Source: Candidatus Terasakiella magnetica (GTDB taxonomy: Bacteria > Pseudomonadota > Alphaproteobacteria > Rhodospirillales > Terasakiellaceae). From it: DNA of 64,000 bases. Shown in pieces: positions 17,478-36,882 of the stretch; the first letter of the stretch is position 1; each line of letters starts with the position of its first letter. The notes beneath the pieces were generated by a model. The model was not told the origin of the DNA. It saw only the letters and a list, made by a program, of their open reading frames with translations, and searched no databases. A program made the translations under genes and the position numbers. Location: contig NZ_FLYE01000045.1 of assembly GCF_900093605.1 (NCBI RefSeq), positions 1-64,000 of the forward strand. The letters run 5' to 3'.

Positions 17478-17566
17478 GCCGTCATGCGCGCAACTTGGAA
17501 CTCACAGATAAACCAAAGCATATTTATTTTATGAGTTTACATTCTAGCCCGGTATTATCTAAAAAA

Positions 17567-17600
17567 AGCAAAAGGCTCAGCCCTTTTGGGGCTAAGCCTT
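17567..17600 (-). terminator. Terminator of the disrupted host tRNA-Leu gene
   Basis: Stem AGGCT-AGCCC / GGGCT-AGCCT with loop TTTTG, followed by a T-rich run on the minus strand. It lies 10 bases beyond the CCA of the tRNA 3' half, as expected for the original tRNA transcript. Confidence 0.8.
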
Positions 17601-17610
17601 TGAAATTACT

Positions 17611-17662
17611 TGGTGCGGGCGGGCGGACTTGAACCGCCAAGACCAAAAGGTCGGCAGATTTT
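17611..17662 (-). pseudogene. 3' half of host tRNA-Leu(UAA), cut off by island insertion
   Basis: Reads on the minus strand from A35 of the anticodon loop through the long variable arm, T arm, acceptor strand CGCCCGC, A73 and encoded CCA. All 52 bases are identical to the 3' exon of the island's own tRNA-Leu at 18090-18141. The matching 5' half is 12.9 kb away at 30530-30564. Removing the DNA between the two core repeats would rebuild a normal intron-less gene. Confidence 0.95.
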
Positions 17663-17666
17663 AAGT
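17658..17666. repeat. Left att core (attL), ATTTTAAGT
   Basis: Nine-base direct repeat shared with 30525-30533. It spans the anticodon loop (minus strand ACTTAAAAT). Flanking bases diverge at once on both sides: tRNA sequence to the left, island sequence to the right. Confidence 0.85.
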
Positions 17667-17725
17667 TAAATATGAAGTTTAATTTTCTATATAAAAAACA
17701 ATGACTTGCAATAATTTATTGTTTA

Positions 17726-17745
17726 TGTGTAAAAAAATGTGTAAA
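17726..17745 (+). repeat. Candidate integrase arm sites, left end
   Basis: Two direct copies of TGTGTAAA (17726-17733 and 17738-17745), 12 bases apart, about 60-80 bases from the left core. The same octamer occurs near the right core in the same orientation. Confidence 0.5.
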
Positions 17746-17809
17746 CTTTCATAAGAATTTTAACACAGTTATTGCATTAATGAAATGCTGGTGCTAAAAG
17801 GAGTTCGTT

Positions 17810-18141
17810 GCGGGCGTGGTGAAATCGGTAAACACAGCAGACTTTAGCTACGCTACAAGCGAGAATTGAGTGCCTCGTTGGAAATGACGGGAGTAGAACT
17901 GCTCAAATTCGGGGAAACCTTAACAGTACGGCTGATGGCAATCCCGAGCCAAGCTTCCGAGAAATCGGTCGAAGGTGTAGAGACTAGACGGGCAGCAACT
18001 AAGTCAATCAGGTTTGATTGATATGTTGAAGGGATAGTCCAGACCACAAACGTCTATTTGAGGCGGTGGCGAAAGCCATAGAGGGTAAGAAAATCTGCCG
18101 ACCTTTTGGTCTTGGCGGTTCAAGTCCGCCCGCCCGCACCA
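17810..18141 (+). tRNA. tRNA-Leu(UAA) containing a group I intron (island-borne replacement)
   Basis: 5' exon 17810-17844 (GCGGGCG acceptor strand to U34) and 3' exon 18090-18141 (A35 to encoded CCA). Joined, they give an 87-nt class II tRNA with a CAGA/TCTG anticodon stem, loop CTTAAAA, anticodon UAA, a long variable arm, T arm GGCGG-TTCAAGT-CCGCC and a perfect 7-bp acceptor stem. Both exons are identical to the host tRNA halves flanking the island, but the 5' and 3' flanks differ. A possible promoter is TTGCAT (about 17772) with CTAAAA 16 bases on. Insertion between U34 and A35 is the position known for cyanobacterial and plastid tRNA-Leu(UAA) introns. As the host gene is split, this copy is likely the working tRNA for UUA codons unless another exists elsewhere. 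Confidence 0.96.
17845..18089 (+). ncRNA. Group I self-splicing intron in tRNA-Leu(UAA) (IC3-like)
   Basis: The 245-nt intron shows all core elements. P4 pairs TCGGG (17909-17913) with CCCGA (17943-17947). Q contains AATCCCGAGCCAAGC. P6 is capped by CCGA-GAAA-TCGG. R contains GGTGTAGAGACTAGACGG (17974-17991), S is AAGGGATAGTCC (18029-18040), and P7 forms between ACTA and TAGT. P1 pairs exon ACTT (17841-17844) with GAGT (17868-17871), giving the required G-U pair at the 5' splice site. The last intron base is G (18089). A GGC-GAAA-GCC hairpin lies in the P9 region. There is no homing endonuclease frame, so it is a minimal ribozyme with no visible means of independent movement. Confidence 0.95.
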
Positions 18142-18150
18142 CTTCTATTA

Positions 18151-18168
18151 GCGTACAAAAAGGTACGC
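18151..18168 (+). promoter_or_regulatory. Hairpin directly before the integrase start
   Basis: Perfect stem GCGTAC / GTACGC with loop AAAAAG, ending one base before the ATG at 18170 and starting nine bases after the tRNA CCA. No ordinary ribosome site is visible, so this structure may limit integrase translation. Confidence 0.5.
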
Positions 18169-18169
18169 C

Positions 18170-19456
18170 ATGACAAAGATTTTGCATCACAACGATGCTC
18201 TTCCAATGAAAATTCTGGACGGTGAAATTACCCTTGAACTAAGGGGTGGTTCTTCAATTATTCAAGCGCGCTGGAAAAGCGAACTTGAAGGCAGAAGATA
18301 TGAGCGTGTATCAACTGAAACATCAGATATTGATAAGGCAAAAGAGAAAGCTAAAGAAGCTTATAAAGTATATATAGCTCACGTAATAACAGGAATGCCA
18401 CTTGAGTCTGAACGGACTGTGAAGTTTGTAGCTGAACAATACATAGCTTCTCTTGGAAAAAAAGCTGATCTACCTAAGCAGCAAAGGCAATACATTTCAG
18501 CTATCGAAAATTACATCATACCGTTACTTGGAAGCGTGAAGATAACGGGAGTAAACAAAGCACAGCTAGAATTGTTTAATCAAAAGCGTGATGAAAAAAT
18601 GGGAAAAATCCCAAAGAAGGGGACTGTTGCAAAACACAACACAGCAATTCGACGTATATTTGAATTTGGTGTGGATAAGAAATATTGCGCTAGAAATGAT
18701 ATGCCGTTTCTTACTGTTAAAGGGGTCGGTCAAAAATCTGTCCCACGACCAGCGTTTACCGATGATGAGATAAAAAAAATCTGGGATAAGTTCGATGAGT
18801 GGATAGCATTAACAACACGTAGTGATGTTCAATATCGTCGCAAGTTATTAAAGCTAATGTGTTTCTTTATGTATAAAATTGGGTGTAGGCCTGGCAATGA
18901 AATTGAAGAGCTAAAATGGTCGTGTTTGCAAACTGAGGAAAATGGCGAAATTACTTTGCATATCCACAAAAGTAAGTATGAAGAAAAAGAACGCACAATC
19001 ATAATGCCATATAAGCTTCTTAAGACATTAGACGAAGTTGGACAGCTAACAGGTAAAACCAAGCCGGATGATTATATTTTTTGTTCACCTGCAGGTAAAA
19101 AGCTTGTGGAAATGAGCGTGACATTTAAGGATTTTCTTGTATGGGCTAAATTAAGACAGGCTAAAACAGGAAAGTATAAAGGCGAAAATCGTGCGCTATA
19201 TAGCTTTCGGCATACGTTTGCAACACAGCAAGTGAGAGAGCTTACTATTGGTGAAATTACCGATATGGCAGAATACATGGGAACAAGTGCCGAAATGATC
19301 GTACGTTTCTATGTTGAAAGTAACTCAAACAAATTTGCACGTGATCATGTAGTTGGCTCATTTGTAGATGGCGTTGTTGAGTTCTACAAGGACGGTAAAA
19401 CAGATAACGCAGGATTTGATGTTGCACGCTTGTATAGTCAAGGTCTTGCCAAATAA
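18170..19456 (+). CDS. int: Tyrosine recombinase, island integrase
   Basis: A 428-residue phage-type integrase: N-terminal arm-binding region (about 10-75), SAM-like core-binding domain (about 80-180) and catalytic domain (195-395). Catalytic candidates are R240 (GCRPGNEIEEL), K269, R347 and H348 in the LYSFRHTFAT box, and nucleophile Y381 (MIVRFYVE). The usual first His of the H-x-x-R box is Tyr (Y344) and the GH box reads MGTSAEM, so it is a divergent branch. Its position next to the left end and just behind the tRNA identifies it as the enzyme that recognises the tRNA-Leu anticodon loop. MKILDGEI (residue 13) is an alternative start. Confidence 0.93.
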   Translation: MTKILHHNDALPMKILDGEITLELRGGSSIIQARWKSELEGRRYERVSTETSDIDKAKEKAKEAYKVYIAHVITGMPLESERTVKFVAEQYIASLGKKADLPKQQRQYISAIENYIIPLLGSVKITGVNKAQLELFNQKRDEKMGKIPKKGTVAKHNTAIRRIFEFGVDKKYCARNDMPFLTVKGVGQKSVPRPAFTDDEIKKIWDKFDEWIALTTRSDVQYRRKLLKLMCFFMYKIGCRPGNEIEELKWSCLQTEENGEITLHIHKSKYEEKERTIIMPYKLLKTLDEVGQLTGKTKPDDYIFCSPAGKKLVEMSVTFKDFLVWAKLRQAKTGKYKGENRALYSFRHTFATQQVRELTIGEITDMAEYMGTSAEMIVRFYVESNSNKFARDHVVGSFVDGVVEFYKDGKTDNAGFDVARLYSQGLAK

Positions 19457-19573
19457 CATGTATCTCATCGGCGTTTGTACGATAGCCATAATCCGCTTAC
19501 ATTCCAGCAAATGATACTCCTTTCATTCCTTTTCCTTTGAGCCGTTGAAGCTACACTAACGGTAGGAATTGAA

Positions 19574-20002
19574 ATGGAGTTAGATATGACAAAACTTAAA
19601 TCACTTAATTTTGTAGAACCACAAGCACCAGCTAAATCAAACCCGTTTGATAACGCGAAACGGAATTTAATCACGAACTTAAATCGTCAGCTTGCAGCAG
19701 CCAATGCGATGGTCAAAGGTGAGACATATACAGAAACAAGAAGCGAATATGTCGAAGGTTCCGATGGACAACGCACAAAACAAGAAATACAGAAACCCAT
19801 CCGCAAATGGTATTGGCGTGATTACGATGACAAGGTGCGTTTTAGCTTACGTGTTCGCAATAAAGCTGTTGAGATCGAAAAAGGAAAAACAGACATACTC
19901 ATTGGTGAAGACAAACAACTTCCCAATGCCATCAAATTGCTCATAGAAGCAGTTAGCGCTGGTGAACTAGACCAACAGATCAAAAAGCATATTTCCAATT
20001 AA
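19574..20002 (+). CDS. DUF6641-like small protein
   Basis: A 142-residue charged, soluble protein (TKLKSLNF start, RKWYWRDYDDKVRFSLRVRNK centre, KLLIEAVSAGELDQQI end). The arrangement resembles DUF6641, a family of unknown function often found on mobile elements; this is recognition from memory. ATG at 19574, or the second Met at residue 5, are both possible starts. It follows the integrase in the same direction after 117 bases. Confidence 0.6.
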   Translation: MELDMTKLKSLNFVEPQAPAKSNPFDNAKRNLITNLNRQLAAANAMVKGETYTETRSEYVEGSDGQRTKQEIQKPIRKWYWRDYDDKVRFSLRVRNKAVEIEKGKTDILIGEDKQLPNAIKLLIEAVSAGELDQQIKKHISN

Positions 20003-20872
20003 CCACATATATAATTTACAGCTTGGTATTAACTGAGCTGTTTCTATGAGTAACAGGAATTTTAGTTGTTCCGCCTACAGCGCAACAATGCGCTTTTGAA
20101 AAACAAACTCCATTTCATTCCGTTTGTAATTTCAAAACGCAAATTATTTGAAAAGATTAAGTGAGAAGAAAACATCTCATTTATATGAATTAATATTATC
20201 AAGATGTTAGATTTTATTACCCCCCCTGTAACAGCTAAAATACAATTACAGAGGAGGAATAAACACATTATCTGAGTGTTGAGTGTTTTCGAAACAGGGG
20301 TAATTAACAGCAAGCAGTCCGTGTGTTTCTTGCCATCCCCTAATCCCCAAGCTTACGCTTTCGGACGGTGTCATCAATGTGCAGATCGAATTACACAAAG
20401 ATACTGAGCTACAGCAGTAATCAACCACCAGTTCTTCTTTTCAAACAAACCATGTTAGCGAAGATGCTGTCATCTTCCAAAGCTTGCGGGCATTTTTATT
20501 TTACTTGGCTTCGTGCAATTGCGGGTAAACAATCGGTCCCTTCCAAGGCGCTTGCGTTAAGCTTATATCCAGATATTTTATATACCCTCTCCGGTCTAAG
20601 TCCCGGGGACAGTGTGAGTGAGAACGCTATAATTTTATTTATGCTAACTGCTTTGCAGCTTCGTCATGTGGCATAATTTAACTATCATTATTATAACAAA
20701 TCCAAGGACTTGATTACAAAATTCAAATAGAGCATTTCAGAAAATAGCGTTGCTTAAGCAACTTATTTTTCTTTAGTTGAAATTTCAACTTTTCGAAAAT
20801 GACTGTTTTTCATTGTTGCAATTGCAATAATGAAAAAACTATACATTTCGGTTTTTTAATCGATTAACAAAA
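20003..20872. other. Non-coding or degenerate stretch in the island
   Basis: About 870 bases without a convincing gene. The frames here (for example 20368-20676 plus) have no plausible ribosome site and no recognisable protein. A CTGTAA/TTACAG hairpin precedes a good GGAGG at about 20250, but no start codon with a lasting frame follows. Its right part holds three separate palindromes, listed on their own. It may be the wreck of a lost gene. Confidence 0.5.
20749..20827. repeat. Cluster of three palindromes
   Basis: GTTGCTTAAGCAAC (20749-20762), GTTGAAATTTCAAC (20776-20789) and TTGCAATTGCAA (20816-20827) are each perfect inverted repeats. The middle one, with its flanks (20772-20794), recurs exactly at 30028-30050 near the right end of the island. 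They lie just beyond the stop of the short recombinase. They could be operators, recombinase sites or terminators. Confidence 0.6.
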
Positions 20873-21439
20873 TTAAACCACCTCGACAGCTTCGCGCATC
20901 ATATCGTCGTTTACGTCGATATAGCGTTGTGTCGTCGTTAAGTGTTGATGACCAGCAAGAGTCATGATCACTTTCGGGCTAATGCCACTATGCGCAAGCT
21001 TGGTGATAAATGAACGTCTACCGCTGTGGCTCGTGGCACCATCAATGCCTGCCTCTTGATAAAGACGACCAAATAGCTGACACAGCGTGTTTGGGGAAAA
21101 AGCTGTGTTCTTTTGTGTGAGAAGGAATGGTTTATCTGCTTTGATTGCTGACAGCGTTTTCAAATAGTTTTTAATCTCACGTTTGAGCTTATCGCTTACA
21201 AATACAACACGGGCTTTATTCCCCTTCGTATAAGCAGCTTTAAGCTGGATTTGATCTTTTGGGTTTAGATCAGCATCAAATACATCGGAAACTTTCAACG
21301 CTGCAATCTCACCTACACGCAAACCAGCATAATATGACAGCATGATTGCGATGCGATTACGTGCTGCATGTTTCCCTGCGTCCACAACAGCTAACAAACG
21401 TTTCATCTCTGTTGGGGAAATAACTTTTGCCTGTTTCAT
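20873..21439 (-). CDS. Short tyrosine recombinase (catalytic domain only)
   Basis: About 188 residues with a full XerC/D-like catalytic set: R in GLRVGEI, K in TKGNKARVV, the box HSGRRSF (H-x-x-R), GHQHLTTTQRY with His and the nucleophile Tyr. It lacks the usual N-terminal core-binding domain, so it is about 100 residues shorter than XerC/XerD. I choose the ATG at 21439 (MKQAKV), which has GAGG seven bases upstream; an ATG at 21451 is in frame. It is not closely similar to the main integrase. Possible roles are assisting excision, resolving multimers, or inverting a site. Confidence 0.85.
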   Translation of the reverse strand: MKQAKVISPTEMKRLLAVVDAGKHAARNRIAIMLSYYAGLRVGEIAALKVSDVFDADLNPKDQIQLKAAYTKGNKARVVFVSDKLKREIKNYLKTLSAIKADKPFLLTQKNTAFSPNTLCQLFGRLYQEAGIDGATSHSGRRSFITKLAHSGISPKVIMTLAGHQHLTTTQRYIDVNDDMMREAVEVV

Positions 21440-21727
21440 CACAAACCTCATAAATCATTGTTTTATCTAACAATTTATTATGTTTCCGTTGAGCCCAGAC
21501 CACAAGGCTTCATTGAGTGTCAGCGTTTCTGCGGGTTGTAGCCAGAATGTAATAGATCAGTTGGAATATGACATTCTGAGTTTCTGCTTAAATGAACAAA
21601 GCAGACATACTTTTATAATCTTCATTCTTCGCTTATTAGCCAAAAGGGGAAGCGTTTATATCCCTGCGACATAAGCTGAAAAATACAGAGTACATAGCTA
21701 TCCGTACGGGAAACTATTTAGTTTCAA

Positions 21728-22495
21728 TCATTCTGTATACGCCTGATATATCTCTTCATATCGTCCAGTTTTTTTCAATTGATTTAAGCCCATTTCGAAC
21801 TCTTTCATAAGCTCGCTTGTTGCAAAGCCTGCTGGGAAATGCATTGGTTTCTCAAACAAAGGGGAATATCTAAATGCCTGCCCTTCTTTAGCGTGTTTTT
21901 TGACTAAATATTTAAAAATTGAAACGTCCATTATCAAGACATCTGCTCTATCGGACACAAGACTTTTTACCTGTTTTTCTTGATCCGCAATCTCTCTGTA
22001 AGATTTGGCACCTTTAATAGCTGTCTGGTATTCTTCCGGGAGGAATTTTTGTGCATTTTGAAATGCAAGGACACGTTTCCCTTTTAAATCATTGAATGTC
22101 TCAATTTTGTCATTTCCGTTATCAAGAGAAATATATGAATCTGTTAAACTAAGGTATTCAGATACATAAAAAGCCCCATCCACATCATTTGGTAAAATTG
22201 ATGCCGCATCGATATTGCCTGCGGTAATTTCAGCAGGCATCCGTTTAAAGTTCATATAAACAGGTTTGATTTTTTTACCGACTGTGGCAAAAGCCTCTCG
22301 AAAAAGATCCACTTCAATGCCAAGTTGTCTTGATAAATCGAAGTCTTTTTCACTATATGGCTTAACCGCAAGAATATAGGGCGGTTTTGCTCCTTTAAAG
22401 CCAACAGTTACAACATCTTCGGCATTCACTGGAACGCTGGATGCGCTATTCCATAAAAATGCTGATGCAACAGCAATTAAATATCTCAGCTTCAT
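21728..22495 (-). CDS. Periplasmic solute-binding protein, family 3 (island)
   Basis: About 255 residues with a signal peptide (MKLRYLIAVASAFLWNSAS, cleavage near NAE) and a family-3 fold (VGFKGAKPPYIL, IETFNDLKGKRVLAF). Start ATG at 22495, behind a GGGAGA ribosome site; an upstream frame extension to 22522 is unlikely. It is divergent from the SiaA-like phosphatase, with about 120 bases between them. With no transporter genes nearby it may present a ligand to the periplasmic domain of that sensor. Confidence 0.8.
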   Translation of the reverse strand: MKLRYLIAVASAFLWNSASSVPVNAEDVVTVGFKGAKPPYILAVKPYSEKDFDLSRQLGIEVDLFREAFATVGKKIKPVYMNFKRMPAEITAGNIDAASILPNDVDGAFYVSEYLSLTDSYISLDNGNDKIETFNDLKGKRVLAFQNAQKFLPEEYQTAIKGAKSYREIADQEKQVKSLVSDRADVLIMDVSIFKYLVKKHAKEGQAFRYSPLFEKPMHFPAGFATSELMKEFEMGLNQLKKTGRYEEIYQAYTE

Positions 22496-22566
22496 AGAAT
22501 ATCTCCCAAATGACACGGCCAAAAAGTCTTTTAACTTAAAAGACTAATTGCCAATAAATCGTAGCT

Positions 22567-24096
22567 ATGAATATAGTATGCATCAATGAGATTAAGCAGG
22601 AAAACTATTTTTATATTATGTTTCGTTCCCTGACCGTAAAAACCTTATCAATCTTTATCCCCTTAGTTTTAATCGCTGAAATTTGTGTGTTCAGCGTACA
22701 GTCATGGTATCATTATAAAGAACAAGAACGTGAACTTCTAAATCGATTAGAAAACCTAGCAACGGTGCAAAGTTCAAGCTTGGCACAGTTTCTCTGGGAA
22801 TATGATGATGAAAGCGTTGCTGCTGCAATACAGCAAATGACAAAATTGCCGATTATCAAGGATGCTGTTATCTATAATGACACTGGTGAAATCGTTATAG
22901 CGAATGGTCAATATGAAAACGCGCCCGAAAAACCAAGTTACCGTATCAGAAAAGATATTGTCTATGTTGAACAAGCAGATAATAGAAAAATTGGTGAATT
23001 AGTTGTCACTGTTACAGGTCAAAATATTGTTAAAGAACTTTATAATAAACTTAAAATTACTCTTATTGTTTCAGCTGTTCTTCTCTTCGCTTTGATTGGT
23101 GCAACCTTACTATCTAACCGGCTTTTTATTGGTCGCCCATTGGGATTATTAAAAAAAGCAATCGATACTCAAAAAGATGATTTAACGAAACAGTCAAATG
23201 TTGATTGGCATAGTAATGATGAAATTGGTGATGTCGTTTCTGCTTTTAATCAAATGCAAGACCGCCAAACCAATGATCGTAACCAAATTGAACAATATCA
23301 AGACCACCTGGAAGACCTTGTTAATCAGCGAACAGCTGAGGTTCATGCAGGGATAAAATACGCCAGTCGCATCCAACGATCCATTTTACCTTCAAAAGAA
23401 ATGTTAAATTCGGCTACCCAAGATCACTTTATTATTTGGGAACCTCGCGATTTAGTCGGAGGAGACTTCTACTGGTGCCGACGTTGGGGCAAGGGATATT
23501 TAATTATATTGGGAGACTGTACCGGTCACGGAGTGCCAGGAGCACTCATGACACTTGTCTGCGCAGGTGTAATGGATAGGGCTGAAAGCGAAACAGAACT
23601 TGGTGATTATTCAGCCCTGATGCAACGCATTCATATTTTAATGCGACGCGCCCTGTCTCAAGACGGTCAAAATGCAGAAACAGATGATGGCGTTGAACTC
23701 GGTTTATGCTTCATTCCGGATGATCGCAAACATCTTCATTTTGTTGGTGCTCGAATAGATTTATACAAATCAGAAAATGGTGAAATCTCAACAATTAAAG
23801 GCACCAGAGTGGGAATTGGTTATCCTGAAATTTCAGAAGACCAGTTATATGAGAAACATATAATACCGATTGAAGGTAATGAAATTTTCTATATGACATC
23901 TGATGGTTTTGTGGATCAAATCGGTGGACCGAAAAGAACAATGTATGGGAAGCGTCGTTTTAAAGATTTTCTAAACCGGATTTCAACGAACTCCTTATCC
24001 ATGCAATCCCAATCTTTATGTGCCGAACTGAAAAATCATCAAGGCACAGAATTGAGAAGAGATGATATCTCTTTAGTCGGTTTTAAGGTAAACTAA
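22567..24096 (+). CDS. siaA: SiaA-like membrane sensor: HAMP plus PP2C/SpoIIE phosphatase
   Basis: A 509-residue signal protein: membrane helix about 22-44, periplasmic sensor part (about 45-160), second helix about 163-186, HAMP 187-240, a coiled coil, then a SpoIIE-type serine phosphatase from about 270. Metal and catalytic motifs are VGGDFYW (297), GDCTGHGVPGA (about 317), MTSDGFVDQIGG and RRDDISLVGF. It is followed by siaC-like and siaB-like genes, as in the Pseudomonas Sia pathway, where SiaA dephosphorylates SiaC. The ATG at 22618 (MFRSLTVK) gives a more natural N-terminus; neither start has a clear ribosome site. A 16-bp palindrome (24097-24112) directly follows the stop. Confidence 0.88.
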   Translation: MNIVCINEIKQENYFYIMFRSLTVKTLSIFIPLVLIAEICVFSVQSWYHYKEQERELLNRLENLATVQSSSLAQFLWEYDDESVAAAIQQMTKLPIIKDAVIYNDTGEIVIANGQYENAPEKPSYRIRKDIVYVEQADNRKIGELVVTVTGQNIVKELYNKLKITLIVSAVLLFALIGATLLSNRLFIGRPLGLLKKAIDTQKDDLTKQSNVDWHSNDEIGDVVSAFNQMQDRQTNDRNQIEQYQDHLEDLVNQRTAEVHAGIKYASRIQRSILPSKEMLNSATQDHFIIWEPRDLVGGDFYWCRRWGKGYLIILGDCTGHGVPGALMTLVCAGVMDRAESETELGDYSALMQRIHILMRRALSQDGQNAETDDGVELGLCFIPDDRKHLHFVGARIDLYKSENGEISTIKGTRVGIGYPEISEDQLYEKHIIPIEGNEIFYMTSDGFVDQIGGPKRTMYGKRRFKDFLNRISTNSLSMQSQSLCAELKNHQGTELRRDDISLVGFKVN

Positions 24097-24123
24097 CTTA
24101 TTAATTAATAAGAAGAGTATGTT

Positions 24124-24510
24124 ATGGAAAACTTTGTAATAGAAGCCACGGACAATATCCCCTCGGTTGATATTGATTTTTCAACAGGTAAAGTCACAAT
24201 TGAAGGTGAAGCATATTCAGAAGAAGCTGCTGAGTTATTTAGTCAAATAGAAGATAAGATTGATACCTTAGTATCCAACGACCAATGTTCAATGATTACA
24301 GTTGAACTTAATTTCATGTACTTTAATTCTTCATCTGCCCGACGTATCATGCACATGCTGTTTAAACTGGATGAGATTGCTGAAAATAAAACAGTAAACA
24401 TCTTTTGGGGCGTTCGTGAAGACGATGAAAGCATGGAAGAAATGGGCGAAGAGTTTGGAGAAGAAGTAGATAATGCAAACTTTGAAATTAAACATTTAGG
24501 CAGTTCATAG
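24124..24510 (+). CDS. siaC: SiaC-like regulatory phosphoprotein (DUF1987)
   Basis: A 128-residue acidic protein like anti-sigma-factor antagonists. MYFNSSSARRIMHML (residues 65-79) holds the Ser cluster (69-71) that corresponds to the phosphorylated residue of SiaC. The end is strongly acidic (EDDESMEEMGEEFGEE). In the known pathway the unphosphorylated form activates the diguanylate cyclase SiaD; no such cyclase is encoded in this window, so the output partner is unknown. It lies between the siaA-like and siaB-like genes. Confidence 0.87.
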   Translation: MENFVIEATDNIPSVDIDFSTGKVTIEGEAYSEEAAELFSQIEDKIDTLVSNDQCSMITVELNFMYFNSSSARRIMHMLFKLDEIAENKTVNIFWGVREDDESMEEMGEEFGEEVDNANFEIKHLGSS

Positions 24511-24533
24511 TCTGTAACGAAAAGGTAATTTTA

Positions 24534-25082
24534 ATGCTCAGCTTAAAAGGATTACATGACGATATGTTGCAAAATGATATTACATTTTGTTTTACAGGCT
24601 TCATGTCAGAAGAAATGATATTGGGTGTTGGCAAGACACTTCGTCATAAAATTGAGTTGGAAGAATTAGATAAAAGAGCTTCAAGAGACCTTTTTTCTAT
24701 TTTTATTGAAATGACCCAAAATGTTATCCGTTATTCTGCTAAAAACCAAATTGATAACAAAGACCCTGTAGAGATCGACCTTAGGTATGGGGCGTTATCT
24801 ATTGGTGAGAAAGATAATCGCAAATTTGTCGCTTGTGGCAACCTTGTCCATGATGAACATGTAGAAAGATTACGTAATAGCTTAAGTTATATTCAGTCTC
24901 TTTCTCAACAAGAACTAAAGCAACATTTTAAAGAATGTTTAAAAAAGGACGTTCCCGAAACAAGTAAGGGGGCTGGCGTAGGCTTTATTGAAATTGCGCG
25001 TCGTGCAAAGCATGGCTTTGAATTCCATTTTGAAGAAGCCACAAATGACAATCATTTCTTCACACTGACAGCTTACATATAA
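24534..25082 (+). CDS. siaB: SiaB-like serine/threonine protein kinase
   Basis: A 182-residue GHKL-type kinase. The N-box is visible in LFSIFIEMTQNVIRYS (about residues 53-68), and the SKGAGVGFIEIARRA segment near 145 is the glycine-rich ATP lid typical of the SiaB family. It should phosphorylate SiaC, opposing the SiaA phosphatase. It starts 23 bases after the siaC stop. Confidence 0.85.
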   Translation: MLSLKGLHDDMLQNDITFCFTGFMSEEMILGVGKTLRHKIELEELDKRASRDLFSIFIEMTQNVIRYSAKNQIDNKDPVEIDLRYGALSIGEKDNRKFVACGNLVHDEHVERLRNSLSYIQSLSQQELKQHFKECLKKDVPETSKGAGVGFIEIARRAKHGFEFHFEEATNDNHFFTLTAYI

Positions 25083-25129
25083 ACATCCGCTTTGGCTTAA
25101 CAATACGTATTTCTCGACTTAAAAGAGCA

Positions 25130-25948
25130 GTGAAAATGAGATTTTTAATTATTGTATGTACTTTACTACTATTTGTTTCATTCACAAAAAGCAGTCATGC
25201 TAAAGAGCAAGAAGCCATTTCTGTATGCTATTTGAATTGGGGTAAACAAGGTGGGAAAAACCTACCTAACCAGGGTTTTATACCAGATCTTCTCTCTGAA
25301 ATACTTACAGAGGCTGGTTATACGCCAAAGGTTGATATCATCCCGTGGCTGCGTTGTCTCGACGGTGTGAAAAATCATAAATATGATTTTGTAGGTAGCT
25401 ATTGGATAGGTGGCGAAGGTGATGGCTGGTTCGATTACTTTTTACCAACAACAGTTGATAGGATTAATTTTGTCACCCTTAAGAACAAGGCAATTTCATC
25501 AGGCCAACCAGAAGCTTTTTTGGGCAAACGAGTTGGCTTTTTAAAAGGTGCAGGAGGCTTGGAGCGTATTCGTGCACACAGTGACAGAATCAATCTTTAT
25601 GAAGCTACAACAGACCTTAAACTCCTAACGATGCTGAAACATGGTCGCCTAGACGGGATTGTTAGTAATAGCCCGCATATTATTGGATTAGCAGAGACAA
25701 GTTTTCCAGAAGTTGTGAAAGAGCTTGTAACGCTACAGCCTGCCTTACAAATCAATATCGCATCCCCAGCGATCGCCATCGATAATCCTCGAAGACGTGA
25801 GATTAAGGAACGTTACAACGCGGCATATCTAAAGCTTAAAAAAGCTGGAATTTATGATCGTTTGATGAAAAAACACGATATCAGAGTCGACTATGAAATG
25901 ACGTCAAATGAGCGAGCTGTTTTTGACGCTGCACAAAAAAATAATTAA
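25130..25948 (+). CDS. Second island periplasmic solute-binding protein, family 3
   Basis: A 272-residue secreted protein with a signal peptide (residues 1-24, cleavage near SHA-KE) and a family-3 fold (VCYLNWGKQGG, PWLRCLDGVKN, GKRVGFLKGAGG). Two cysteines (about residues 33 and 80) are retained. It follows siaB in the same direction and may be co-transcribed, so it probably belongs to the signalling set and not to uptake. A second start at MRF (residue 3) is possible. Confidence 0.8.
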   Translation: MKMRFLIIVCTLLLFVSFTKSSHAKEQEAISVCYLNWGKQGGKNLPNQGFIPDLLSEILTEAGYTPKVDIIPWLRCLDGVKNHKYDFVGSYWIGGEGDGWFDYFLPTTVDRINFVTLKNKAISSGQPEAFLGKRVGFLKGAGGLERIRAHSDRINLYEATTDLKLLTMLKHGRLDGIVSNSPHIIGLAETSFPEVVKELVTLQPALQINIASPAIAIDNPRRREIKERYNAAYLKLKKAGIYDRLMKKHDIRVDYEMTSNERAVFDAAQKNN

Positions 25949-26494
25949 ACTCAAATATTTATTCTTTTCTTCGATCTATCTTGTTAAATATCTCTGAAAG
26001 GGAATACGTGAAGAACACCGCCATTTGTTATCAAGAAAAGATCTTTCAGGCTAAGGAGAAATCATAGGCTGCCGGGTGGGGTGGACTCGCAATCTCATGT
26101 GATGTTTGCGTATAGAATTGAAAAGCGGACATCTCCAAATCAATTTCAAACTACCGTTCATAGCCGAGGCTGTTGAAAAACTCTGAAACACGTTAATTAA
26201 CCAAAAACACTTGCCCACTGAGCCATGTAATGCATTCTAGATACGAAGGGGCTAATCAAAACTGACGAAACATCGTCCAGGAGCCGCAAATAGCGGCATA
26301 TGCACCAAATAAAACATTAGGCCCGTTGCAAAATTAAAATAGCGAAAATTTCACGCTATTCACTGGACGAGTTTTTCAACAGCCTCAGCCATAAACAGAC
26401 AACAATATAGAACTATCTAATTAAATTTTATGATAAGGTCGAAAATAGTATACGATATACCTTATGAGGAAATTTTAGGGGCTGATAGTCATTT
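25949..26494. other. Intergenic stretch holding a MITE-like element
   Basis: About 545 bases without a gene between the second binding protein and the transporter-phosphatase fusion. The MITE at 26166-26386 fills the middle. The final 108 bases, ending in GAGGAAATTTTAGGGG, should hold the promoter of the fusion gene. Confidence 0.5.
26166..26386. mobile_element. MITE-like non-autonomous element
   Basis: 221 bases bounded by perfect 18-bp terminal inverted repeats (GAGGCTGTTGAAAAACTC at the left, its reverse complement at 26369-26386). A 4-bp direct repeat AGCC flanks both ends and looks like a target duplication. No transposase frame lies inside; short hairpins such as GCCGC/GCGGC and ATAGCG/CGCTAT occur internally. 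GGCTGTTGAAAAA-type ends are common among insertion sequences, so an active parent may exist elsewhere in the genome. Confidence 0.85.
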
Positions 26495-29200
26495 ATGGGC
26501 GAGTTAAATCAACCGGAAAATCGTGAATACAATGACTTCGTGAATAACGAAATTATTGAGGATTATTCACTTCGTTATTCCCCATCAAAGTTTCGCACTT
26601 GGTCTGAATTTGTCGTTTCCAATACCGCGATTGGCAGTATTTCTTTTTTGGCATTAGAAGCTATTGGCGCCAGTATTGCCTTAAGTTACGGCTTTTATAA
26701 TGCCTTTTATGGCATTTTGGTTGCTTCACTCATTATTTTTATCATGGGAGCACCAATTTGCTATCGTGTCGCAAGACACAATATTGATATTGATCTACTC
26801 ACACGTGCCGCTGGGTTTGGATATTTAGGTTCAACCGTTACCTCCCTGATATATGCTTCTTTCTGTTTTATATTCTTCGCATTAGAAGCTGCAATTATGG
26901 CACAAGCCATATATTTATATACAGGGTTGCCACTCTCTCTTGGTTATATCTTTTGTTCTTTGATCATTGTTCCAGTTGTGTTTCTGGGTATGACAGCAAT
27001 CAGTCGTCTTCAAATGTTTACTCAACCTATATGGTTGATATTGATGATTATTCCTTTCATCGCGATCTTTCATAAAGAACCCGATGTATTAAGTGTATTT
27101 CTTCACATATCAGGTGATGGAGGCAATGATAATGCCTTCTCTTGGTATGCTTTCGGTACGGCTCTAGGCATATCGCTATCATTGATTGCACAAATTGGAG
27201 AACAAGCGGATTATCTGCGTTTTATGCCCAATAAAACTAAAGAAAATCGTATAAAATGGTGGAGTGCGGTCATTCTCGCTGGCCCTGGATGGGCAATCCT
27301 TGGGTTTCTAAAACAAATTGGCGGTATCTTGTTGGCTGCGATTGTATTGATTGGTGGTGCATCAATCGTCGAAGCTAAAGAACCCATCCATATGTACACT
27401 GCTGCTTTCAGCTATGTCGTGGATAACCCTAACATGGCACTTCTTATTAGCTTTGTTTTTGTTATTATTTCTCAAATAAAAATCAATGTGACCAATGCAT
27501 ATGCAGGCTCGCTAGCATGGTCTAATTTTTTCTCAAGGACGACGCATACTCATTTAGGACGTGCTGTTTGGGTCCTCTTTAATATAGCAATTGCCTTGAT
27601 GCTCATGCTGATGGGCGTATTCGAGGTATTAGAAAAAATACTCGGTCTTTACTCAAACGTTGCCATTGCTTGGGTCGCCTCAATTTTCGCAGACCTTGTT
27701 ATCAACAAACCCCTCAAATTAAGCCCACCTGTTATTGAATTTAAAAGGGCCCATCTCTTTAACATAAATCCAGTGGGTAGCCTCAGCACCCTTATTGCCT
27801 CTATTCTTTCTATCGTTGCTTTTTCTGGCACATTTGGTGCCGAGCTTCAGGCGTTCTCTTCTCTCATTGCTCTTTTTAGCGCCTTAGCTCTTTCCCCGTT
27901 GATATGTATCCTAACAAAGGGGAAATACTATATCGCACGCCCTGCGGAAGTGCTTGAAGAAGGGCATCACACCTGTAAATCATGCCATGATGACTTTGAT
28001 GCAGCCGATATGGCCACATGCCCATGGCTTTCAGGCTCAATTTGCTCGGTCTGTTGCTCTGTTGAGGGACGATGCAACGATGTCTGCAAAACTGAAAAAG
28101 AATTTGATCTAAAAGAACGGCTTATAAGGTGGCTCCAAGGCATATCGAAAGAATGGGAAGGGTCAACAAAAATACCAATCGCCATTAACTTTTTATCGAG
28201 TTATTTAGGTCTACTGCTTACCGCTAGTTTTCTCTTATGGACAAGTTATATTGTTCAAATTGAAGGGCTAGATAAGTCTAATTTAATCAGTGTAAAGAAT
28301 ACATATTTCAATATCTTTTACCTCTTTGCTCTTCTTTTATTCGTAGCTGCATGGCTCTTGGTTTTAATGCAGCAAAGTAAAGAATATGTCGAAGTTAAAC
28401 GACGTGAGGCAGAACTACAGCTTAATGATGCTTATTCTGTTATTTCAAGCTCAGTCCACTATGCAAGCAATATTCAACAAACCATTTTGCCCGATGTAAG
28501 CCGTTTGGAAGAAGTCTTCGCTGATTATTTTGTTATCTGGGAGCCCCGAGATGTTGTTGGTGGTGATATTTACTGGTGCCGTCGTTGGGGGGATGGTTAT
28601 GTATTTATAAACGCAGATTGTACTGGCCATGGGGTGCCTGGCGCCTTTTTAACCTTAATTGCAACTGGTGCTTTGGACCGTGCACGTCACGAAGTCGAGG
28701 CTGGAAAGCTAGGAGCATTGGTGACACGTATGCACCAGATTGTTAAACGGACTTTAAATCAGCATACCGATTACGCTAAATCTGATGATGGATTGGAACT
28801 TGGTGCATGCTACATACCGAACGATAATGCTAATCCAATGATATTTGTTGGTGCTCGTTTTTCCTTATTTGTATCCAATGGGAAATCTATTGAAGAAATC
28901 AAAGGTGATAAAAAAGGACTAGGGTATGCTGAAATTTCTGAGGATCAGGGTTTTAAAGAGCATATTGTAAATAAGATTTCTGGACACGCATATTACATGA
29001 CCTCTGATGGTTTAATTGACCAAGTAGGTGGAGAACGAAGGCGCGGATTTAGTAAGAAGCGGTTTAGAAGTATCTTGCTGGAATTAGCTCATTTATCAAT
29101 GCCAGAGCAAAAAGCAAACATCCTTAAAACACTAAGTGAGTACCAAGGTCAGGAAGTTAGACGTGATGACATATCTGTTTTAGGTTTTAAAGTCCGATAA
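26495..29200 (+). CDS. NCS1-like transporter fused to a Cys-rich patch and a SiaA-like PP2C phosphatase
   Basis: A 901-residue fusion. Residues about 1-480 resemble a purine/cytosine permease (NCS1) with about 12 membrane helices. Residues 491-532 hold a compact cluster of eight Cys (CKSC, CPWL, CSVCC, GRCNDVC) that could bind zinc or an iron-sulfur centre. Two further helices lie at about 564-588 and 599-625. After a short coiled coil, a SpoIIE/PP2C phosphatase follows with VGGDIYWCRRWG (about 687), ADCTGHGVPGA (707), MTSDGLIDQVGG (834) and RRDDISVLGF. The phosphatase is clearly paralogous to the one at 22567. I infer a transport-coupled or substrate-sensing phosphatase acting on SiaC. No break or frameshift is present. 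Confidence 0.87.
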   Translation: MGELNQPENREYNDFVNNEIIEDYSLRYSPSKFRTWSEFVVSNTAIGSISFLALEAIGASIALSYGFYNAFYGILVASLIIFIMGAPICYRVARHNIDIDLLTRAAGFGYLGSTVTSLIYASFCFIFFALEAAIMAQAIYLYTGLPLSLGYIFCSLIIVPVVFLGMTAISRLQMFTQPIWLILMIIPFIAIFHKEPDVLSVFLHISGDGGNDNAFSWYAFGTALGISLSLIAQIGEQADYLRFMPNKTKENRIKWWSAVILAGPGWAILGFLKQIGGILLAAIVLIGGASIVEAKEPIHMYTAAFSYVVDNPNMALLISFVFVIISQIKINVTNAYAGSLAWSNFFSRTTHTHLGRAVWVLFNIAIALMLMLMGVFEVLEKILGLYSNVAIAWVASIFADLVINKPLKLSPPVIEFKRAHLFNINPVGSLSTLIASILSIVAFSGTFGAELQAFSSLIALFSALALSPLICILTKGKYYIARPAEVLEEGHHTCKSCHDDFDAADMATCPWLSGSICSVCCSVEGRCNDVCKTEKEFDLKERLIRWLQGISKEWEGSTKIPIAINFLSSYLGLLLTASFLLWTSYIVQIEGLDKSNLISVKNTYFNIFYLFALLLFVAAWLLVLMQQSKEYVEVKRREAELQLNDAYSVISSSVHYASNIQQTILPDVSRLEEVFADYFVIWEPRDVVGGDIYWCRRWGDGYVFINADCTGHGVPGAFLTLIATGALDRARHEVEAGKLGALVTRMHQIVKRTLNQHTDYAKSDDGLELGACYIPNDNANPMIFVGARFSLFVSNGKSIEEIKGDKKGLGYAEISEDQGFKEHIVNKISGHAYYMTSDGLIDQVGGERRRGFSKKRFRSILLELAHLSMPEQKANILKTLSEYQGQEVRRDDISVLGFKVR

Positions 29201-29267
29201 GGGTCAAAACCCGTCTTCTTATAGCAAGATAATTTTAGTCCGCTTCTATTTGGGAAGCAGAAACGGA

Positions 29268-29299
29268 ATTGCTAAATACTTATAGGAGGATTTAGCAAT
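29268..29299 (+). promoter_or_regulatory. Inverted repeat enclosing a ribosome site
   Basis: Perfect 10-bp inverted repeat ATTGCTAAAT (29268-29277) / ATTTAGCAAT (29290-29299). Its 12-base loop contains the GGAGG ribosome site, and its right arm includes the first bases of the start codon at 29298. It can act as an RNA hairpin holding back translation or as a DNA operator. Confidence 0.65.
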
Positions 29300-29582
29300 G
29301 CGTGCATATGAACTTACGAAAAATAGACAAAAAAGAAAAAAACATCTCCGCCAAGAAGCTGATCAAAATGCAGCCCTATGGCGTTTGATGTATGGGGATT
29401 TTGAATATATCAACCGCAATCAATCTCACCTGCTCGCTGAAATAGAAGCAAAAACAGAAGAGCTTGAGCGCTTGAAAGATGAATTCATGCTTGAGATTGA
29501 AAAAGCAGAATTGGACTTTGAAACAAAGCAACATATCAAAGATATGGCACAGAAACGCATTAAGAAAATAATGCGGAATTAA
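29298..29582 (+). CDS. Small coiled-coil protein, unknown
   Basis: A 94-residue, highly charged protein. The first 20 residues are very basic (KNRQKRKKHLRQ) and residues 45-90 are predicted to form a coiled coil (LLAEIEAKTEELERLKDEF). No family recognised. It has a strong AGGAGG ribosome site placed inside a hairpin, so expression is probably controlled. A basic start plus coiled coil suits a DNA-binding or scaffold role, which is only a guess. Confidence 0.7.
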   Translation: MRAYELTKNRQKRKKHLRQEADQNAALWRLMYGDFEYINRNQSHLLAEIEAKTEELERLKDEFMLEIEKAELDFETKQHIKDMAQKRIKKIMRN

Positions 29583-29691
29583 TTTCGGCAGCTTTTGCGA
29601 ACCATAGAACGAATTAACGTTTTCCACTCACCCTTAGACATTTTATTCAATTCATAAATCTTCATATCGATCTCCTTACAATAGTTTAGCA

Positions 29692-29705
29692 CTAAATATA
29701 TTTAG
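29692..29705. repeat. Palindrome CTAAATATATTTAG
   Basis: Perfect 14-bp palindrome 23 bases upstream of the start at 29728, with TTTAGCA repeated on both sides. It shares the CTAAAT/ATTTAG half-site with the inverted repeat before the 29298 gene, so one regulator may bind both. Confidence 0.5.
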
Positions 29706-29727
29706 CAACTGAACAGGAGAAATATTG

Positions 29728-30036
29728 ATGCAAATCGTCAAAGAAATTTATGAATTTACCCGCGCAAACAATTTAGCAGACAACGAATGCGATTTTTCGC
29801 TTAAGTGGCTGAATAAGTCAGCACGCTATTACAATATGATAAAATTAACGGGGCGCGATGCGAGTTTTGATGCATTAATTCGTCTATCAACTAACCTACA
29901 ACTTCGTCAAACAGCTTATAAACAAAGCCAAATTAAAGAAATGCAGGATATTGGAAACAGTATCGAAGCATTTGATCAAAAACTCCACAACGTCATCAAA
30001 GCACGAACGATTGCAGAAGCAATTTCGTTTAGTTGA
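29728..30036 (+). CDS. Small DUF6626-like protein
   Basis: A 102-residue protein from the ATG at 29728, with AGGAGA eight bases upstream (a TTG one codon earlier is also in frame). The FSLKWLNKSARYYNMIKLTGRDASFDALIRLSTNL segment resembles DUF6626, whose helices look like a helix-turn-helix. It is the last gene before the right end of the island. An excisionase or regulator would fit that position, but there is no direct evidence. A palindrome (30032-30045) overlaps its stop. Confidence 0.6.
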   Translation: MQIVKEIYEFTRANNLADNECDFSLKWLNKSARYYNMIKLTGRDASFDALIRLSTNLQLRQTAYKQSQIKEMQDIGNSIEAFDQKLHNVIKARTIAEAISFS

Positions 30037-30050
30037 AATTTCAACTTTTC
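30028..30050. repeat. Second copy of the GTTGAAATTTCAAC palindrome
   Basis: Twenty-three bases identical to 20772-20794, centred on a 14-bp palindrome at 30032-30045. A looser relative (TTGAAATT-AG-AAATTTCAA) follows at about 30174-30192. Confidence 0.65.
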
Positions 30051-30433
30051 ATTTTCTGGAATTTCATTGAATTTACGGTCGTATTTTCCTTATCCTTGAA
30101 TAGATGCGGAGTTATAATATAATACGAATAGTGACTGATTTTCCCTGCCTCCAGATAAATAAATATCAAGATGTTGAAATTAGAAATTTCAATTGTGACT
30201 ATCAGAGTGTCTGACACAATGTTTTATATCTAGTCGCATCTATATGGATTTACTGTCTGCAAGCCTTTGAGCCCCACTAGTAAGCGTTATTTTTTTCATA
30301 CACTAATGTGTGTGAAATGTATTTTGGGGATGCAGGGGAGCTTTATAAGCTGAAATAGAGTAAGTTTTTCAGGAGAAGCACACAGACTAAATGTTACACA
30401 GGTAAATAGCGGTTTTCTGCGAGTTTGACGCCG

Positions 30434-30482
30434 TGTGTAAAAAATTTTCTTAGAATGTTAGAATGTGTAAACAGTGCGTAAA
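30434..30482 (+). repeat. Candidate integrase arm sites, right end
   Basis: TGTGTAAA at 30434-30441 and 30464-30471, and the variant TGCGTAAA at 30475-30482. The last two are 11 bases apart, like the 12-base pair at the left end, and have the same orientation. Confidence 0.5.
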
Positions 30483-30524
30483 TATATAATTATTTATTTT
30501 CAATGACTTAGTTTAATTTTATTA

Positions 30525-30533
30525 ATTTTAAGT
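30525..30533. repeat. Right att core (attR), ATTTTAAGT
   Basis: Nine-base direct repeat of 17658-17666. Island sequence lies to the left, and the tRNA-Leu 5' half to the right. Confidence 0.85.
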
Positions 30534-30564
30534 CTGCTGTGTTTACCGATTTCACCACGCCCGC
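30530..30564 (-). pseudogene. 5' half of host tRNA-Leu(UAA), cut off by island insertion
   Basis: Reads on the minus strand from G1 (30564) through the D arm to U34 of the anticodon loop. All 35 bases are identical to the 5' exon of the island's tRNA-Leu. Transcription from the old promoter (beyond 30564) would now run into the island and give a truncated tRNA transcript. Confidence 0.95.
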
Positions 30565-30633
30565 ACAAAGTTATGTGCTTCACTGATGAAGCGGGCACAC
30601 ATTATCGCTGAGTTGTTTTGAATGCAAGAGGGA

Positions 30634-36737: not shown

Positions 36738-36836
36738 GGAATTAATCTTCTTAACCATATGAAGGTTTATTTCCTTTCTTGGACGTTTCCTCCCAAACTT
36801 TTTCGGGCTCAGCTTTTGCTGGGCCTTTCTTTTTTT
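36738..36836 (+). ncRNA. Candidate small RNA with anti-Shine-Dalgarno motif
   Basis: A hairpin GGCTCAGC-TTTT-GCTGGGCC followed by a T-run (ends about 36836) terminates a plus-strand transcript, yet no gene precedes it. A promoter-like TTGATT (36701-36706) and TAATAC (36725-36730), 18 bases apart, would start transcription near 36738. The transcript would contain TTTCCTCCC (36786-36794), an anti-ribosome-site motif seen in several alphaproteobacterial small RNAs. Confidence 0.45.
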
Positions 36837-36882
36837 CAGCAGAAAATAAGGGGTAAGCGTTAATTAACTTTAATTCAGTTAA

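Follow-up and report, generated by a model that had tools for sequence, protein, structure and literature searches.

Complete replacement of a split tRNA-Leu(UAA) gene by a genomic island in Candidatus Terasakiella magnetica, with related elements in other bacteria

Introduction

Genes for tRNAs are favoured as insertion sites since an incoming element normally repairs the gene it enters. Passages of a review of archaeal tyrosine recombinases describe an intact tRNA gene reconstituted after integration (PMC8371274), and ICEApl1 at tRNA-Leu(TAA) is, in the relevant parts of its description, a rebuilder with 66-bp repeats (PMC4908127). Here we analyse the first 64,000 nucleotides of contig NZ_FLYE01000045.1 of Candidatus Terasakiella magnetica (the window), in which a genomic island divides the host tRNA-Leu(UAA) gene and carries a complete second copy of it. 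The island resembles ICEApl1 and other tRNA-targeting islands and integrative and conjugative elements in its tyrosine recombinase, in a crossover inside a tRNA gene and, for ICEApl1, in the target gene itself; it differs from ICEApl1, as portrayed in those same parts (PMC4908127), in having a 9-bp repeat, rebuilding nothing and supplying the whole gene.

The nearest precedent, for part of the idea, is one archaeal locus. In the sections of Sugahara et al. 2012 (PMC3293823) devoted to it, an element in a Caldiarchaeum tRNA-Thr(GGU) gene introduced an intron, with a 5′ fragment remaining upstream of the intron-bearing tRNA, and the authors suggested that the added intron could shield the integrated element from further invaders. 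Shared with the window are a mobile element in a tRNA gene, the 5′ fragment left behind, the intron-bearing tRNA and an adjoining putative recombinase gene. The Caldiarchaeum case is a single archaeal locus with its intron at 24/25, in which only the 5′ part, as far as position 27, comes from the element and the host 3′ part rebuilds the gene, whereas the window and related elements have a group I intron and a complete gene, displace both host halves and occur in many bacteria. Randau and Soll, as relayed in passages of three papers (PMC4090602, PMC3293823, PMC3218864), proposed that integration is blocked by introns in tRNA genes or by the splitting of those genes; the notion of protection by an intron at the attachment site is common to both cases, but theirs is an archaeal host defence and the protected copy here belongs to the mobile element. 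IStrons, in the portions of PMC4227781 that describe them, likewise join a group I intron to a mobile element; their intron removes the element from a transcript, whereas the window intron sits in a cargo tRNA and leaves the element unspliced, is too short at 245 nt to hold a transposase, and has the recombinase gene outside it. Searches of CC0, CC BY and CC BY-SA papers in PubMed Central returned no bacterial description of such elements, and our claim of absence extends no further than those searches.

A split host gene and a complete replacement

The features that define the island are as follows.

17571–17601, minus strand: terminator-like stem of the host tRNA gene, which stays with the 3′ half (17564–17610 conserved in congeners)
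17611–17666, minus strand: displaced 3′ half of the host tRNA-Leu(UAA), including the 9-bp core; 100% match to nt 32–87 of the joined tRNA
17810–18141, plus strand: complete, intron-bearing replacement tRNA-Leu(UAA)
17845–18089, plus strand: group I intron after U34 of the replacement, in the anticodon loop that is also the element's insertion site (RF00028 match at 17835–18062; boundaries from exon matches)
18170–19456, plus strand: tyrosine recombinase (integrase) of 428 aa, beginning 28 bp past the 3′ end of the replacement (Pfam PF00589, E 2.7e-8; 15 invariant columns kept in a nine-row family alignment)
30525–30564, minus strand: displaced 5′ half of the host tRNA-Leu(UAA), including the 9-bp core; 100% match to nt 1–40 of the joined tRNA (upstream DNA conserved in congeners)

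The host gene is cut in its anticodon loop, a loop flanked by stem, where both halves end. Joined, they give an 87-nt tRNA with a 100% match, and their acceptor stems form 7/7 pairs across 12,954 bp. The only sequence common to both is the 9-bp ATTTTAAGT, at 17658–17666 and 30525–30533. Both junctions are truncated at this core and neither is rebuilt, so that the island does not carry a part of the tRNA that would keep one junction intact. A preliminary description of this DNA had claimed this division in the anticodon loop, with unrebuilt halves about 12.9 kb apart and a 9-bp repeat, and the matches uphold it. An 11-bp repeat, AAAATTAAACT in the minus-strand reading, lies just inside both island ends (window 30525–30585 and 17650–17720) and is possibly an arm-type site for the integrase.

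The replacement lies inside the island on the plus strand, opposite to the host halves. Its exons (17810–17844 and 18090–18141) match the joined 87-nt tRNA at 100%, and ARAGORN with introns allowed reports tRNA-Leu (taa) with a 245-nt intron, in agreement with the full copy that had been proposed at this place. The conserved catalytic core of a group I intron is recognized by the covariance model RF00028 in a permissive Rfam scan (53.2 bits, cut-off 50, E 1.4e-12), and again above cut-off when genomes of the order were searched for group I introns. The exact, tRNA-compatible exons suggest that the intron is self-splicing. Default ARAGORN and a fast Rfam scan of the whole window both missed the intron-bearing gene.

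Searching the whole assembly with the 87-mer (3.68 Mb, 47 contigs, 100% complete; E≤0.001) returned both halves, both exons and a single 72% match, a tRNA-Leu(UAG); no other tRNA-Leu(UAA) gene was found at that threshold, the outcome on which the preliminary description's argument for essentiality depended. tRNA-Leu(UAA) is the normal reader of UUA, and ten window genes counted contain 101 UUA codons. From what is known of tRNA decoding, the replacement would be essential in this strain, and the earlier picture of an element that takes a gene hostage and pays the ransom itself would follow from the same knowledge.

The empty site is preserved in close relatives. All five congeners among 60 relatives carry the gene at the same place, intact, intronless and identical at 87/87 positions, and the flanking DNA on both sides is conserved along with the terminator stretch. 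Since joining the halves yields the gene of the congeners, the insertion took place in a gene that was whole and had no intron, and precise excision of the island would restore that gene, in keeping with the preliminary description.

Recurrence within the order

Among 317 genomes of the order, a search for group I introns matched 46, 28 of them above the family cut-off, at 49 places. Longer stretches were taken around all 49, and 48 could be typed as tRNAs, although ARAGORN anticodons were unreliable for several. Nineteen of these 48 intron-bearing tRNAs have a displaced half of the same gene nearby, one of the 19 (L137) being an insertion of another kind. In the loci inspected, the anticodon loop is where the host 5′ half stops, except in L125, which has an internal deletion, and in L137. 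Targets include tRNA-Leu(UAA) and tRNA-Leu(CAA), together with Thr, Arg(CCU) and Lys genes (read from exons by eye). Where both halves could be compared (eight loci), the acceptor stems pair 7/7 in seven: the window, L102, L117, L119, L123, L129 and L136. In the eighth, L133, they pair at only 3/7, and it was left uncounted. Five of these loci are mini-elements spanning 1.4–1.6 kb (L102, L119, L123, L129, L136); no integrase was seen among the open reading frames of the three that were read (L119, L123, L129).

Several candidates were set aside. Half matches were weak or misplaced at L108, L121, L135, L141 and L145. Three tRNA-Met genes adjoining integrases (L065–L067) show no displaced half within about 19 kb and resemble 3′-end insertions of the usual kind. 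The ends of L137 look by eye like inverted repeats in the D arm; there, in G558, the D arm of a tRNA-Arg(CCU) appears to be interrupted by an insertion of 9 kb that contains an intron-bearing copy of Arg(CCU), perhaps a transposon-like variant of such replacement. Group I introns occur order-wide in many kinds of tRNA (Leu, Thr, Arg and Lys, read from exons by eye), and a congener carries one in tRNA-Arg(CCU) (G002:C10:2845-3138) with no displaced half in 13 kb.

Among 13 genomes with Leu(UAA) replacers, 11 have no further Leu(UAA) gene among the typed matches; G456 and G597 have one or more. In G456 (L111, L241, L253), a bin, two intact Leu(UAA) genes accompany the one with the intron.

Starting from the integrase instead, a search with alignment A1 found relatives in 66/317 genomes at E≤1e-25, and 70 of the listed places were examined. 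A displaced 5′ half adjoins a full intronless tRNA-Leu at ten (L163, L167, L177, L178, L179, L197, L199, L201, L206 and L210), while all five intron-bearing replacers in this set, the window's among them, are seeds of the alignment. The intron is thus not obligatory, because intronless replacers exist alongside the intron-bearing ones. Ordinary rebuilders use the same target in G007 and G024, each with an intact gene and a displaced 3′ half. At two further places (G503:C21:94094-95530 and G460:C354:1178-2766) a displaced 3′ half lies 1.3–1.5 kb beyond a full tRNA-Leu(UAA) match, the layout that rebuilding elements of very small size should give.

Two replacements, both apparently intronless, were later cut themselves. 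The one in G536 is interrupted in its anticodon loop by a second element, 91% alike at its left end, and little-changed sequence is no longer seen in the original host half, which has decayed. In G483 the inner half found between the true host half and the current intron-bearing copy seems to stem from an earlier replacement that had no intron.

Distribution across phyla

With the window integrase alone, tblastn found no relative in genome_contigs or viral_contigs and, in plasmids, just two partial matches, both weak. When genome_contigs was scanned with a two-row alignment of the L124 and L117 integrases, 316 relatives were returned, and the best 80 of these form the named set. These come from Pseudomonadota (52), Acidobacteriota (22), Planctomycetota (4), Binatota (1) and one source unplaced by title; many are bins, in which stray contigs are possible, and two are loci already met in the order. 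Upstream of the integrase, 69/80 have a displaced tRNA-Leu 5′ half; a replacement was recognized in 59, and both are present in 52. The 28 loci lacking either half or replacement by the pattern used stand outside the 52; in four of these, searched genome-wide, the replacement is present farther off. No displaced half was found next to the four Planctomycetota integrases.

Distance between integrase and replacement varies. The four loci searched genome-wide, all in Acidobacteria, have both halves and a Leu(CAA) replacement near the far end, about 0.15–0.2 kb from the host 3′ half in three and 4.5 kb in G702, and in L314, L323 and L334 a Leu(CAA) gene lies some distance from the integrase. Two isolates carry the layout with intron-bearing replacements and pairing acceptor stems: Edaphobacter lichenicola M8US30, with halves 33 kb apart and a 34-nt repeat, and Brevundimonas variabilis DSM 4737, with halves 85 kb apart and about 9–10 nt shared. 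The arrangement that the preliminary description had proposed to look for in other alphaproteobacteria is present elsewhere. In all, 13 loci, the window and 12 others, have both host halves displaced, pairing acceptor stems and a full replacement inside. As read from the assemblies, complete replacement of a broken tRNA gene is recurrent.

Intron, target and core sequence

Statistics were computed on the 52 named-set loci with both half and replacement. The replacement bears an intron in 20/21 loci with a UAA-type target and in 2/31 with a CAA-type target, 29/31 of the latter being intronless (Fisher p 3.6e-11, kinship ignored). On a quick integrase tree the target changes at least 9 times and the intron at least 10 times; among six independent pairs on supported branches, the intron goes with the target in five and opposite to it in none (p 0.0625).

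Copies without an intron have altered cores. The 12-nt stem-plus-loop core differs between host and replacement in 30/30 intronless cases, through C32T, bases at 30–31 or other stem changes; the inner 9-mer is unchanged in three of the 30 and the loop in 10. The host half and the replacement of Acidocella KAb 2-4 differ solely at position 32 over the stretch read. The 5′ stem and first loop bases are identical to those of the host in 6/22 intron-bearing copies versus 0/30 intronless ones (p 0.0037), and a GACTT or GACTC lead is kept in 21/22 intron-bearing copies.

That the core of the replacement is either interrupted or altered suggests that immunity is part of the design. The preliminary description therefore appears largely right but incomplete: the split, the absence of rebuilding, the full replacement and the lack of a second copy all stood, and the replacement seems to be more than the compensation it had been taken for.

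Model and alternative explanations

We consider it probable that an integrase-driven element destroys the host tRNA gene and brings a replacement with an interrupted or altered core. For the replacement, the basis is the split, the lack of rebuilding, the sole copy and the empty site in congeners. The tyrosine recombinase would drive recombination between a short core and the tRNA-Leu(UAA) anticodon loop; the element's attachment site would carry no tRNA half, and integration would therefore destroy the host gene. The complete replacement beside the integrase would then take over decoding, and excision would rejoin the host gene, as follows from the sequence. The replacement must in turn escape being a target, which the group I intron would achieve in the window element by interrupting the core, and which an altered anticodon-arm core, a pattern seen in the related tRNA-Leu(CAA) elements, would achieve there instead if it blocks the integrase. 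Immunity to the element's own integrase, by intron or by core change, is our best inference from these patterns. Were the integrase lost, the replacement could no longer be given up, and mini-elements of about 1.4–1.6 kb keeping little but the replacement tRNA may have arisen in this way. In its broader form, which we lean towards with some reserve, the model describes a widespread class of bacterial elements that destroy the tRNA gene they enter and supply an integrase-proof copy, with anticodon-loop group I introns kept and spread for the immunity they give and core base changes as the alternative.

A number of observations count against the protective role, and most would suit an explanation in which the element is a replacer and the intron merely a passenger, acquired from a donor tRNA-Leu(UAA) that already bore one. 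Intron-bearing tRNAs without a displaced half are common in the order (29/48 typed loci, some on short contigs), and bacterial tRNA group I introns usually lie in the anticodon region anyway, according to passages of PMC4090602. Many replacers are intronless: outside the alignment seeds, those found through the integrase in the order comprise ten intronless and no intron-bearing cases, and in one of the ten (L199, G472) the replacement keeps the 5′ stem and loop of the host half. D-loop introns also exist. By eye, the Leu(CAA) replacements of L103, L109 and L113 (G680, G503 and G688) have a D-loop intron, after GGT and before AGAC, with a whole anticodon arm; ARAGORN mistypes these genes as Pro or Arg. 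In L109 and L113 the anticodon stem is unlike that of the host. We dropped the idea that a D-loop intron indicates insertion into the D loop, as the host halves in question end in the anticodon loop. When host and replacement 9-mers were permuted, matches numbered 3 versus 4.3 expected (P 0.30), because of which avoidance pair by pair is unsupported, although the pools of 9-mers differ. Finally, the window integrase is about 20% identical to those of L117 and L124 and is not a close member of the clade behind the named-set statistics.

We nonetheless regard a passenger intron as unlikely. The near-complete division of intron presence by target type in the 52 loci, repeated on the integrase tree, speaks against it, as do the changed cores that all 30 intronless copies show instead and the renewed attack on intronless replacements. 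Very improbable is a rebuilding island of the ordinary kind, with the tRNA restored at one end, that was misread owing to a tandem tRNA copy: rebuilders do use this target, as G007, G024 and, in the parts of its description cited above, ICEApl1 with its 66-bp repeats at Leu(UAA) attest (PMC4908127), but in the window both halves are truncated at a 9-bp core repeat and the full copy lies inside the island on the opposite strand, which refutes it unless the assembly is wrong. An assembly error at 17658 or 30533 is the least credible of all, since the same architecture appears in other assemblies, isolates included, and the joined halves reproduce the congeners' gene; likewise, a chance or assembly origin of the layout as a whole is unlikely, because both junctions lie inside one 240-kb contig and the layout recurs elsewhere.

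On the replacer model, supplying a full gene is a second solution to the damage caused by insertion into a tRNA gene, met repeatedly in Pseudomonadota and Acidobacteriota, and shows how an essential gene can become the property of a mobile element. If the intron protects, the model gives a simple, testable reason for self-splicing introns in the anticodon loops of bacterial tRNAs, and the archaeal idea of introns as integration shields becomes testable in culturable bacteria. There is also a warning for annotation: default tRNA searches overlook the sole working copy, and the genome then seems to lack a UUA reader.

Other features of the island and window

The remaining island genes include a second recombinase and a cargo.

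19574–20002, plus strand: small protein with a weak DUF6641 match below the curated cut-off
20873–21451, minus strand: second, short tyrosine recombinase of 192 aa (PF00589, E 1.2e-28)
21728–22522, minus strand: family-3 solute-binding protein
22567–25082, plus strand: SpoIIE-type phosphatase, SiaC-family protein and DUF6272 protein
25130–25948, plus strand: second family-3 solute-binding protein
26495–29200, plus strand: 901-aa protein with a C-terminal SpoIIE phosphatase domain

The phosphatase, SiaC-family and DUF6272 genes form a signalling module carried as cargo, together with the second SpoIIE protein, which has a long membrane-like N-terminal part. Beyond the island, Rfam places a suhB/mmgR small RNA at window 36765–36841 (47.7 bits).

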